A stretch of 64,000 nt of DNA from contig NZ_AP018718.1 of assembly GCF_003966565.1 (NCBI RefSeq), positions 1,178,001 to 1,242,000 of the forward strand, in the 5' to 3' direction. Position 1 is the stretch's first letter. Each line of letters begins with the position of its first letter. Positions 31,666 through 55,407 of this stretch are shown here, in pieces. The DNA comes from Sulfuricystis multivorans (lineage in GTDB: Bacteria; Pseudomonadota; Gammaproteobacteria; Burkholderiales; Rhodocyclaceae). The notes below the pieces were generated by a model, which was given only the letters and a program-made list of their open reading frames with translations, was not told the DNA's origin and ran no database searches. A program made the translations under genes and the position numbers.

Positions 31666-32147
31666 CCCAGATCGTCCTTTGGAACACGAGCGGGTATCAA
31701 AAGCGAGGGCGAGCAGGTTTGCGTCCCCGCGACGAGCCAAAACCCTCGTCTATTGGCGAGGAGCGGGGGCGCGAAGATGCCGCCCGCAGCCCAAAAGCCG
31801 CCGTGTAGGGCGATGAAATGGCCGTATCAAATGCTCATGGCGAATCAGCCCGGTCTAAGGAAACGCTGAATAAGTTGCTGCGCGGGCGCCTCGCTGCGTT
31901 GCGCGGTGTTGGCTTCGGCCGCTTCGCTTAACCTCGGCAAAGCCGAGGTTAGCCTTCGCCGCAACTTCGTTGTCGCTCCCTCGCCTAACTCCATGTTATG
32001 TGGTTCCGGCATAACTTGCGCTTCGCTCCTGTTAGCCTGCACCGAAACTTCGCCTTCGGCTCGTTTTCTCGGTCGCTGCGCACCAAACGTCTTGCGCTGC
32101 ATCCCGCTCGCGGCCTTCTTCAGCGTTTCCCTAATGGATAATCTGGG
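31666..32147. mobile_element. Small non-autonomous element B (copy 1), interrupted by element A
   Basis: Bounded by CCCAGATCGTCCTTTGG and inverted TAATGGATAATCTGGG, with 5-bp target duplication TTTAT (31661-31665, 32148-32152). About 206 bp once the nested element (31859-32130) and its duplicated tetranucleotide are removed. Near identical to copies at 37193 and 63536. It accounts for the 501-bp gene-free stretch 31648-32148. The right duplication overlaps the TAA stop of the iron-binding protein gene. No open reading frame of substance. Confidence 0.85.
31859..32130. mobile_element. Small non-autonomous element A (copy 3), nested in element B
   Basis: 272 bp with perfect 12-bp terminal repeats GGAAACGCTGAA / TTCAGCGTTTCC and 4-bp duplication CTAA (31855-31858, 32131-32134). 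Compared with the other A copies the core is expanded by hairpin cassettes: CTTAACCTCGGCAAAGCCGA then GGTTAGCC near 31927, and GTTCCGGCATAAC to GTTAGCCTGCAC near 32001-32044. The same cassette backbone recurs in the tRNA-Ser array at 54529-55050. Confidence 0.82.
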
Positions 32148-36242: not shown

Positions 36243-36371
36243 CCGTCCCGCCAGCGCCGAATTTCCGAAGCGATTCGGCGCTCGGCGGGACGTTCCATTT
36301 TCCGCCAGCGCCGAATTTCCGAAGTGATTCGGCGCTCGGCGGGACGTTCCATTTTCCGCCAGCGCCGAGTT
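36243..36371. repeat. Tandem array of the REP-like palindrome (54-bp period)
   Basis: Two full units and a third partial one with a 54-bp period (CCAGCGCCGAATTTCCGAAG at 36251 and 36305, CCAGCGCCGAG at 36359). Each unit folds as GTCCCGCCAGCGCCGAAT, 10-nt loop, ATTCGGCGCTCGGCGGGAC: an 18-bp stem with one bulge. The two full units differ at a single base in the loop (GCG versus GTG). It lies between convergent prpE and the enoyl-CoA hydratase gene, where a two-way terminator or mRNA end-protector would be useful. Confidence 0.85.
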
Positions 36372-36401
36372 TGCAAGCCGGTGCAGGGCGAATGGTGGCG
36401 C

Positions 36402-53445: not shown

Positions 53446-54129
53446 GTGAAGAAGTTACTCAGGGGCATTGCGCTATTCCTCGCACTCATTGCTGCGCTGT
53501 TGGCGATTCCTTTGCTGTTCATTTCCGGAAACGAAAAAGCGCCGGCCGTCGATGATGCGCTATTGCCCTGGAACATCGAGCGGTTGCCAGGCGGAGCAAC
53601 GCGCGTATTCGGCCTCACGCTGGGCGAGAGCACGCTGGACGATGCTTACCGCCGATTTGGCGAAGAAGCCCGGGTGGCGCTGATCGCGGCCCAGGGCGAA
53701 TCCGGATCGGTCGAGGCGTTCTACGAGCACTTCAATGCCGGCTTCATCACCGGGAAGATGATTCTCACGCTGGAAACCAGCCAGGCGCAACGCGCAGCGT
53801 TGCTCGCGCGCGCGGTCAAGGCGGAAATCACCGAAAATGCCGCGCGGCGCATCACGCTCGCCGCCGTCGATCTAGAGGATCTACGCCACGCGCGCATCGC
53901 CGGCATCACCTTCATTCCTTCCGCGGATCTCGACGCGGAGTCCGTCAGGCAACGTTTCGCTATGCCCGCCGAAACGATCCGTCTCGACGAACGCATCACC
54001 CACTGGCTCTATCCCGACAAGGGGCTCGACGTGCGGCTCGACGCCAAGGGCAAGGAAGTATTGCAATACGTCGCGCCAATGGATTTCACCCGCCTGCGCG
54101 ATCCATTACTGGCCGCTGGGCGCTCGTGA
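53446..54129 (+). CDS. Membrane-anchored protein of unknown function
   Basis: 227 residues from a GTG start. One N-terminal hydrophobic helix (about 3-23, LLRGIALFLALIAALLAIPL) would anchor it with the rest in the periplasm, or serve as a signal peptide. The soluble part has LPGGATRVFGLTLGESTLDD and a later LDEDL-like acidic stretch; ITLAAVDLEDLRHARIAGIT and RITHWLYPDKGLDVRLD near the end suggest an alpha/beta domain. I do not recognise the family; similar genes after nuoN in related bacteria are my recollection only. It overlaps the convergent HicA-like gene by 24 bp. Confidence 0.7.
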   Translation: MKKLLRGIALFLALIAALLAIPLLFISGNEKAPAVDDALLPWNIERLPGGATRVFGLTLGESTLDDAYRRFGEEARVALIAAQGESGSVEAFYEHFNAGFITGKMILTLETSQAQRAALLARAVKAEITENAARRITLAAVDLEDLRHARIAGITFIPSADLDAESVRQRFAMPAETIRLDERITHWLYPDKGLDVRLDAKGKEVLQYVAPMDFTRLRDPLLAAGRS

Positions 54130-54420
54130 TGCCTTGTCGCCTGCCACGTGTTGGGCTTCGTAAGCCGAAGGGCTGACGCCGGCGCGGGCGAGAAACTCGC
54201 GCAGATGCTTGATGTCCTGACGGCCGAAGACGCTGCCTTGATGCGGATGATGGAGGAAATATTCGTGGCGGTTCAACAACACGCGGAAACGCGCGCCATG
54301 CACCGGTTCCACGGTGGCACCCAGGTGATGGAGCAGGGATTCGATCTCGCGCCAGTGAATGTTGCCGCTCGGTGGGTCCTGGAACAGGCTGCGCAGAAGA
54401 TGCAGATGTTTGTGGCTCAT
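54106..54420 (-). CDS. HicA-like small protein
   Basis: 104 residues. The fold cues HLLRSLFQDPPSGNIHWREI, ESLLHHLGATVEPVHGARF, and VLLNRHEYFLHHPHQGS, followed by DIKHLREFLARAGV, match HicA-type dsRNA-binding-like proteins, where a His near the third strand is catalytic in the mRNA-interferase toxins. No HicB partner is next to it, so toxin function is doubtful; in related genomes such stand-alone copies exist. Start ATG 54420 gives MSHKHLHLL; the longer frame runs antisense through tRNA-Ser and is rejected. It ends inside the convergent gene by 24 bp. Confidence 0.65.
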   Translation of the reverse strand: MSHKHLHLLRSLFQDPPSGNIHWREIESLLHHLGATVEPVHGARFRVLLNRHEYFLHHPHQGSVFGRQDIKHLREFLARAGVSPSAYEAQHVAGDKASRAPSGQ

Positions 54421-54440
54421 GTTTATGATCCAATCTGATC

Positions 54441-54528
54441 TGGCGGAGGCGGTGAGATTCGAACTCACGAACGCTTGCGCGTTGGCGGTTTTCAAGACCG
54501 CTGCCTTAAACCACTCGGCCACGCCTCC
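54441..54528 (-). tRNA. tRNA-Ser (TGA)
   Basis: 88 nt with encoded CCA. Acceptor GGAGGCG/CGCCTCC, D-arm GCCGAGTGGTTTAAGGC, anticodon stem GCGGT/ACCGC with loop CTTGAAA giving TGA, long variable arm CAACGCGCAAGCGTT, and T-arm GTGAGTTCGAATCTCAC. Intact and expected to function. It is immediately preceded (upstream) by four truncated copies of its own 5' half (54529-55050). Confidence 0.96.
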
Positions 54529-55050
54529 TATACATTGTCACTGGCGGTTTTAGTTCCGGCATAACGCGCCAACGCGCGTTAGCCTACACTAGCGCGCCCA
54601 GCTTGCGCTGGGCTGGCGCCAAGACCGCTGCCTTAAACCACTCGGCCACGCCTCCTATACATTGTCACTGGCGGTTTTAGTTCCGGCATAACGCGCCAAC
54701 GCGCGTTAGCCTACACTAGCGCGCCCAGCTTGCGCTGGGCTGGCGCCAAGACCGCTGCCTTAAACCACTCGGCCACGCCTCCTATACATTGTCACTGGCG
54801 GTTTTAGTTCCGGCATAACGCGCCAACGCGCGTTAGCCTACACTAGCGCGCCCAGCTTGCGCTGGGCTGGCGCCAAGACCGCTGCCTTAAACCACTCGGC
54901 CACGCCTCCTATACATTGTCACTGGCGGTTTTGGCTCCGGCCGCCCGCTGACGCGGGCTTAACATTCGCAAGCGAATGTTAGCCTTTGCCGCAATGGCGC
55001 CTGTGCGCCATTGTCAAGACCGCTGCCTTAAACCACTCGGCCACGCCTCC
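54529..55050 (-). repeat. Array of four truncated tRNA-Ser copies with hairpin cassettes
   Basis: Three identical 127-bp units (54529-54655, 54656-54782, 54783-54909) and one 141-bp unit (54910-55050) lie head to tail upstream of tRNA-Ser. Read in tRNA direction, each begins with the first 35 nt of the tRNA (GGAGGCGTGGCCGAGTGG to GGTCTT), then a cassette of GC-rich hairpins, then AAAACCGCCA, the sequence that follows the anticodon in the intact gene, then GTGACAATGTATA. The variable arm, T-arm and 3' acceptor are missing. A TATAAT box (55067 to 55062, minus strand) lies 11 bp before the outermost copy. Not a CRISPR: units contain no short repeat with unique spacers. Confidence 0.85.
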
Positions 55051-55062
55051 CGACGCAGTGGA

Positions 55063-55407
55063 TTATAGACCGCCGAGCGGCAGCAGTCCGTGGCGGCGGC
55101 GGGCTTCGTTGCAGGCTTCGTCGCCGATATCCAGCAGGGAGAGCGGCGCGAAATCGCGACAGGCCACCGGACGCCGTTCGTAGATCGTGCAGCGAACGCT
55201 TTCGCCGACGACCCCGACCAAGGCGATGCAGCGCCCCGGCATGTCGGGATGTTCGCGCATGCAGGCAGTCGTCGGTGTGTAGGGTTCCGTCATCTCGTTG
55301 GGTACCCAGCCCGAAGAGTGGCTGGCCAGCTCGACGCGGGGCAGTGTGACGCGGTAAGTCGCACAACAGGCGCCGCAACGACAGCAAACGGAAGGCGAGG
55401 AATCCAT
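55063..55407 (-). CDS. YkgJ-family cysteine-cluster protein
   Basis: 114 residues with nine cysteines. VCCRCGACCATYRV at residue 8 and the later RCIALVG, VRCTIYERRPVACRDF match the YkgJ/UPF0153 (CxxCxxCC) family, thought to bind a metal ion (Zn or Fe-S) through the cluster. Biological role unknown. The ATG at 55407 has no strong ribosome-binding site. The 3' end contains the TATAAT-like box used, on the same strand, toward the tRNA array. Confidence 0.85.
   Translation of the reverse strand: MDSSPSVCCRCGACCATYRVTLPRVELASHSSGWVPNEMTEPYTPTTACMREHPDMPGRCIALVGVVGESVRCTIYERRPVACRDFAPLSLLDIGDEACNEARRRHGLLPLGGL

Follow-up and report, generated by a model that had tools for sequence, protein, structure and literature searches.

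Hairpin inserts at the anticodon of tRNA-Ser(UGA) copies: a candidate small insertion element in Rhodocyclaceae and relatives

Integron cassette arrays are built from repeated folded sites and cassettes, and Rickettsia palindromic elements (RPE) are small structured insertions tolerated in genes. We know of no RPE in a tRNA anticodon or in arrays of tRNA halves. REP and GTAG-tagged palindromes, which go with the transposase TnpA-REP (RAYT), are small hairpins with a bulged base that are scattered through genomes and sometimes intragenic; at the 5' end they have a tag of the G-N-A-G type. The hairpins presented here are similar, the tag as judged by eye (PMC3733652). In the same paper, the GTAG family of Thauera consists largely of clustered elements, and RPE are mentioned (PMC3733652). 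Genomic islands that target tRNA genes are another related system. According to the Islander study, 159 islands have a 5' fragment and 3760 a 3' fragment (3919 in all), which agrees with the view of an earlier, sequence-only reading of our locus that duplication of the 5' part is the rare orientation (PMC4383910).

The locus in question is an array of broken tRNA-Ser copies in Sulfuricystis multivorans. As in tRNA-gene islands, the tRNA is split at the anticodon, an intact copy is kept and a fragment is displaced (PMC4383910). Unlike in these islands, the tRNA halves are 91-105 bp apart rather than kilobases, the units are in tandem, the junction holds a folded body, and there is no integrase gene between tRNA and fragment in the window. 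The literature searched, which was covered in part, gave no description of arrays of this kind. Here is a structured element found across an order, having no Rfam match in the scanned sequences, which hits the anticodon of one essential tRNA while the host survives. Remnants of other tRNA alleles seem to be retained in its arrays. They offer a natural test bed for the movement of very small gene-less elements, and raise the question of whether tRNA-gene replacement by exchange is common.

The array ahead of the intact tRNA gene

The window is the whole stretch of 64,000 nucleotides that was analysed. The features of the array are given below, with matches to R3, a model built from 7 units.

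54441..54528, minus strand: intact tRNA-Ser(UGA) gene (ARAGORN, Rfam tRNA, pattern search)
54529..54655, minus strand: unit 1, 127 bp (sequence, repeat and pattern searches; R3 match 54543-54630)
54656..54782, minus strand: unit 2, 127 bp, the same sequence as unit 1 (R3 match 54670-54757)
54783..54909, minus strand: unit 3, 127 bp, the same sequence as unit 1 (R3 match 54797-54884)
54910..55050, minus strand: unit 4, 141 bp (weak R3 match 54924-55025, E 0.0007; fold z -4.1)
55062..55067, minus strand: TATAAT, presumably the -10 box serving the entire array (sequence)

The intact gene is the sole complete tRNA-Ser(UGA) of the window's genome (G000) according to a tRNA-Ser pattern search. Each unit opens with the first 36 bases of the gene, GGAGGCG...GGTCTTG (by linear count; to G35 in standard numbering), and continues with an insert of 68 nt in the 127-bp units or 82 nt in the 141-bp unit. 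The insert is followed by AAAACCGCCA, which in the intact gene directly continues the 36-base 5' part, and the insertion site lies after the second anticodon base. As the insert of the 141-bp unit starts with A, its site is uncertain by one base, and the same holds for any other unit whose insert begins in this way. The spacer GTGACAATGTATA comes last in each unit; in unit 1, the tRNA 5' half is at 54655..54620. Unit 4 has the common plan with another insert, whose first hairpin is CAATGGCGC..GCGCCATTG and whose second arm has an additional hairpin. Single units fold better than their shuffled versions (z -2.6 and -4.1). The hairpin inserts of the window are located in broken first-half copies ahead of an essential serine tRNA gene. 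The sequence-only reading had described four units before the gene, three of 127 bp with the same sequence and one of 141 bp, each a truncated tRNA-Ser copy interrupted within the anticodon by hairpins, and direct reading and the repeat search bear this out. Chance or a private oddity of this genome is contradicted by the recurrence of a like plan in tens of genomes. An artefact of repeat assembly is unlikely, since G000 consists of three contigs and inserts are also found in other genomes whose assemblies have one or two contigs (G018, G132, G539).

The TATAAT, read as 55067..55062, lies 11 nt ahead of the outermost 5' half and overlaps the stop codon of an upstream CxxCxxCC-domain gene (ORF list, Pfam). 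A promoter scan of 54380-55180 found no two-box sigma-70 site, either for the array or independently at the intact tRNA, so the idea of one promoter for the entire array is drawn from the -10 box. The earlier claim that the only TATAAT lies ahead of the outermost copy stands, as no other was seen, and the scan of that interval adds nothing in its favour. On the 3' side of the tRNA, a short gene on the minus strand (54106-54420) weakly matches HicA toxin (E 4.7e-4; the 20.6 bits fall short of the Pfam cut-off, 27), and starts like that of this gene follow tRNA-Ser(UGA) in several genomes of the genus. Elsewhere in the window, positions 36248-36372 hold a 54-bp tandem repeat in 2.3 copies that are 97% alike.

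Fold and distribution of the insert

In the units read, the insert lies between ..GTCTTG and AAAAC (AAAC in G322). Its fold is a three-way junction made of P1, which is the tRNA anticodon stem, P2, the first hairpin, and a second arm in which P3 and P4 are separated by a 3x3 internal loop, mostly G-N-A/G-N-A. In 52 R3 matches, 48 of them distinct, aligned by fitting to the model (A6), 94.9% of the paired cells can pair as compared with 78.4% in shuffles. In the same 48 distinct matches, two-sided changes occur at 19 of the 24 pairs, with 153 such cells against 31.8 in shuffles. RNAalifold predicts the same junction from this alignment, and a smaller MAFFT alignment of 7 units gives 93.9% paired cells and 9 two-sided pairs versus 3.5. 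For five units folded singly, the minimum-energy fold is the junction in only two (G050, G003). Wobble cells number 21 G-U and 20 A-C when pair 66-154 is included. Once this pair is set aside, because RNAalifold pairs column 66 with 11 instead, there are 21 G-U and 1 A-C, a one-sided excess which suggests that the folding strand is probably the sense strand. The hairpins differ in length and number among species, and the right half of the insert is similar to a small hairpin repeat that is dispersed over the genomes of the genus. At gathering score, Rfam (15) finds only tRNA in the window and in the loci of six relatives.

Of the genomes sampled, 17 of 395 in the family (9 genera) and 26 of 399 in the order (12 families by the tool's labels) have inserts at tRNA-Ser(UGA); because the search filters were strict, both counts are lower bounds. 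The model search of related genomes suggested by the sequence-only reading thus finds the unit beyond this genome. Within the family, R3 matched 20/395 genomes, of which 16 proved on reading to have tRNA-Ser units and 4 did not; the seventeenth is G018, which R3 missed. An earlier family DNA search had matched 8/249 genomes. Weak R3 hits were also read by eye: L268 and L269 were rejected as coding chance hits, and L270 and L271 as dispersed hairpin copies. Across the order, R3 matched 19/399 genomes. Among the 18 besides G000, 15 have an intact tRNA-Ser downstream, and in G674, G539 and G648 that gene is masked or cut away. Searching these 399 genomes by pattern gave matches in 17, namely 9 already known, 2 chance hits (G457 and G683, judged by eye) and 6 further genomes. 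Five of these have an intact gene (G463, G439, G759, G482, G526), and the sixth, G489, has an interrupted tRNA-Ser pseudogene. The order count of 26 includes G018. In a class-wide sample of 369 genomes, G000 alone matched. A scan with the 15-base junction gave at least 119 matching stretches, and a filter for tRNA-like context left L089 and L110 among the matches listed; L089 was judged by eye to be coding, and L110 is a Rhodocyclaceae MAG contig.

In the genus (19 genomes), a DNA search places units upstream of tRNA-Ser(UGA) in G000, G003, G012, G014, G015 and G018. G009 has units as well, and its contig ends before the tRNA gene is reached. The loci read in G007, G008 and G011 have plain tRNA-Ser(UGA) genes with no units. 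Gene neighbourhoods around the insert-bearing tRNA-Ser(UGA) vary between genera. Occupied and empty sites exist in near relatives, with close flanks on one side per pair: the plain G011 is identical to G015 at 214/226 aligned positions upstream (163/224 downstream), and to G012 at 194/200 positions downstream (158/254 upstream).

A dispersed relative and a possible route of insertion

A second model, R1, was made from 13 hairpins, two of them taken out of tRNA units. It has 149 matches in the genus at E up to 0.01, a few of which are the tRNA units themselves; 68 are below 1e-6, and 16/19 genomes have matches. This dispersed relative is a simpler form (P3-P4) that also ends in ..GGAACT before AAAA, with a consensus of about AAAACGAAGTTTCAG[AT]GAAGGCTAATGCC-stem-GGCGTTATGCCGGAACTAAAA. 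The window has one such copy:

31998..32051, minus strand: dispersed-hairpin copy (R1 match G000:C1:1209998-1210051)

This copy is inside a MITE-like repeat at about 31859-32130, with ends GGAAACGCTGAA / TTCAGCGTTTCC. The repeat has five matching places in G000 and is seen at L009-L012 (the ends of L009 differ); it contains the dispersed hairpin, joined in most copies by another hairpin. The tRNA insert of G018 has a MITE-like piece with similar ends inside it.

At several sites, the dispersed hairpin has the layout AAAAX - .. - X' - TTTC - hairpin - AAAAX, where X' is the reverse complement of X. These are the 3' end of rplS (G014, G012, G003 and partly G008), L214, L211 and the 3' end of rpoA (G057), the gene names being recognised by eye. 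In G003, the end of rplS and the hairpin are repeated in tandem, one copy being cut by the contig end. Scanning 73 loci, a part of the 149 matches, gave 79 matches, and 72 were tabulated after dropping same-place repeats, a truncated copy and two weak opposite-strand hits. Flanks were compared for 69 of them, L015 and two short-flanked copies being left out. Orthologous sites are counted separately among these 69, so that the copies are not independent and the effective number is smaller: 13/69 have an upstream direct repeat of 12-of-16 or better (1.29 expected from permuted flanks), and 7/69 have an inverted copy of the left arm, or fold-back, of 10-of-13 or better (1.58 expected). The repeats vary in length, and 56/69 copies have no clear long direct repeat. 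An AAAA right junction, variable duplications and a short left fold-back are the traces that target-primed snap-back synthesis would be expected to leave, and template switching in DNA replication could leave the same ones. Like an RPE, one dispersed hairpin lies in frame within a gene, which is hemW-like. There (G003, L039 1430-1560), AAAAGTCGGCGCTG is duplicated and the frame stays open; the AAAAGTCGGCGCTGGCGGGACGG tail of this hairpin also follows many dispersed copies elsewhere. In G014 (L237 3080-3210), a gene recognised by eye as apolipoprotein N-acyltransferase-like has an in-frame stretch bearing the GCCGTCCTGCCAGCGCCGACTTT tail repeat.

In many dispersed copies, GAAG, GCAG, GTAG or GGAG precedes the bulged hairpin (by eye, and looser than the published tag). 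Several features set the element apart from REP and RAYT systems: target repeats that, at some copies, start with AAAA, an outer stem supplied by the target, a home in one tRNA anticodon together with a second hairpin (P2), and no adjoining Y1 transposase gene. Y1_Tnp is present in 5/19 genomes of the genus, G000 not among them, and none of the 8 Y1-transposase loci of the genus has the hairpin within 1.5 kb at E up to 1, so a link to RAYT is not supported. By analogy, the element would nonetheless work like the small palindromic insertion elements (REP, RPE). Viral contigs, plasmids and phages gave no match with the queries used, which speaks against carriage by phage or plasmid.

On balance, we read the array as a lineage-specific, structured and probably mobile small insertion element at tRNA-Ser(UGA), amplified as cassettes. 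In favour of this are the fixed site in differing neighbourhoods, through 9 genera in the family and 12 families in the order, the covarying fold, the occupied and empty sites in near relatives, the dispersed relative with direct repeats at part of its copies, the passenger-like halves and the 3'-half pieces downstream. The element would insert next to AAAA in a hairpin loop and duplicate the neighbouring sequence. Since a complete gene copy is kept, damage at tRNA-Ser(UGA) would be harmless and cassettes would pile up. Upstream, these would consist of insert, AAAACCGG, spacer and tRNA 5' half; downstream, in a few genomes, pieces made of insert and tRNA 3' half would accumulate. Tandem duplication, together with recombination involving other tRNA-Ser(UGA) alleles, would drive the pile-up. 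What the process would require is the sense strand in folded form, be it RNA or single-stranded DNA; the tRNA halves would be passengers. Nearly all matches to the full junction with P2 are at tRNA-Ser(UGA) (the six elsewhere, out of 56 in 40 genomes, are all weak at E 0.003-0.03), so vertical descent with frequent loss, through recombination between the repeated halves, would give the patchy pattern as well. Only tentatively do we go further and see here a new class of mobile element in bacteria, in which structured RNA, or else single-stranded DNA, would home to the anticodon loop of tRNA-Ser(UGA), with a simpler form at AAAA sites in other genes. It would make variable AAAA-led target duplications and a left fold-back, as by target-primed snap-back reverse transcription, and its integron-like array would gather foreign alleles and cargo of the toxin-antitoxin (TA) type.

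Fold conservation across the order could instead reflect an RNA function. The insert might be a structured leader of the tRNA-Ser(UGA) transcript, under selection for processing, stability or regulation, with the arrays as dosage variants. We consider this rather unlikely, even though it is the strongest of the other explanations. It would account for the covariation across an order, the wobble bias on the sense strand and the location between promoter and tRNA, and also for G124, which keeps the insert and anticodon stem with most of the tRNA half lost. It has to face the 373/399 genomes of the order that have no detected insert under strict filters, the variable length and number of the hairpins, and the related hairpins at unrelated genes. 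It is also at odds with copies past the tRNA: just downstream of the intact gene, G553 and G475 carry an insert and, behind it, a second tRNA 3' half, and G681 has a downstream copy too.

Cassettes, cargo and the fate of the tRNA halves

If the folded insert were an integron-like attachment site, cassettes opening with AAAACC and ending with the insert would be exchanged there, some with whole tRNA alleles or cargo. G681 is the clearest case, with the order unit, complete tRNA-Ser, Gp49-like protein (Pfam E 8.5e-22), HTH_37 protein (E 4.4e-6, its 26.9 bits narrowly missing the cut-off of 27), insert, tRNA 3' half and mscL-like gene. The two proteins look like a HigBA-type toxin-antitoxin pair, and we take the gene beyond the 3' half to be mscL. 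The two inserts are nearly identical, and the ORFs between tRNA and insert are the TA-like pair, with no integrase-sized gene. In the congeneric G595, the mscL-like gene directly follows the tRNA. Comparing the two orders places a complete tRNA and a TA-like pair between two inserts, within what was probably one former tRNA gene. Exchange is also suggested by the arrays of G429 and G281, which contain cassettes with 5' halves of other alleles; two middle units of G281 have a different 5' half. In G429, the anticodon-stem strand after the insert matches the following 5' half, which suggests a cassette of insert, AAAACCGG, spacer and 5' half, whereas in G681 it matches the preceding half. The outer 5' half of G342 and of G322 differs from the working one, and the tRNA-Ser pattern search found no second place for the odd alleles of G281, G342 and G322 in those genomes, of which the G281 and G342 assemblies are 85% complete. 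Drift may explain the outer halves of G342 and G322. Repeated folded sites, cassettes and one TA-like cargo are like integron arrays; the tRNA target is not, and the insert, compared by eye, does not exactly show the attC boxes, which we take to be RYYYAAC/GTTRRRY. As G681 is a single cargo example and homologous recombination between arrays would give the same result, we find site-specific exchange of this kind unlikely.

Much less credible is the idea that the insert represents a tRNA intron which can be, or once could be, removed, the array being a set of decayed intron-bearing copies. Exact excision would restore CTTGAAAAC, and G489 speaks for such a reading: its 22-tRNA-gene cluster (L347 5147-11687, about 6.5 kb) holds an interrupted tRNA-Ser(UGA) pseudogene, whose insert is flanked by both tRNA halves with complementary acceptor ends. 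However, G489 yields no ARAGORN tRNA call, whether the insert is left in or taken out and whether the intron option is on or off, the Rfam matches at gathering score in the window and six relatives' loci are to tRNA only, and the remaining units read all lack one half.

Slightly less probable still is the idea that the array was left behind by genomic islands which integrate into tRNA genes and rebuild their 5' half, so displacing 5' fragments. Anticodon-centred sites and rare 5' fragments are known from the Islander work (PMC4383910), and an arrangement of this type is seen in G001 (L024 1501-1747) and G709 (L315), where a 5' half with AAAAC and about 100-150 nt without insert precede a different complete tRNA-Ser(UGA). 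Yet units of about 120-150 bp leave no space for an integrase gene, and their junction holds a folded body rather than a shared overlap.

The 5' halves themselves were compared with the working tRNA over 36 nt, ungapped, for 28 unit/functional pairs from 27 genomes. Thirteen pairs are identical, 5 have one difference and 10 differ at 3-8 places. Halves that were contig-cut, masked, indel-shifted, deleted or unparsed were excluded (G009, G018, G113, G124, G428, G429, G489, G539, G595, G619, G624, G648, G674, G723). The half is changed in G050, G428 and G526 and unlike the working allele in G012, G015, G281, G342 and G322; G012 and G015 have the same two alleles in swapped order. The sequence-only reading suggested that free 5' halves could serve as decoys or competitors or build up as tRNA-derived small RNAs. 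This gains a little from the 13 identical pairs and from the TATAAT upstream of the array, but such identity is expected from recent duplication and the half is changed, of another allele or nearly lost in other species, which makes this role very improbable. In G124, the 5' half is deleted down to the anticodon-stem strand CGCCGGTCTTG, with a TATAAT just upstream; the insert is retained, and CGCCGGTCTTG is still able to form P1. Judged from these sequences, the 5' half looks like a passenger that is not kept for itself, the part that is kept being the insert and the anticodon stem.
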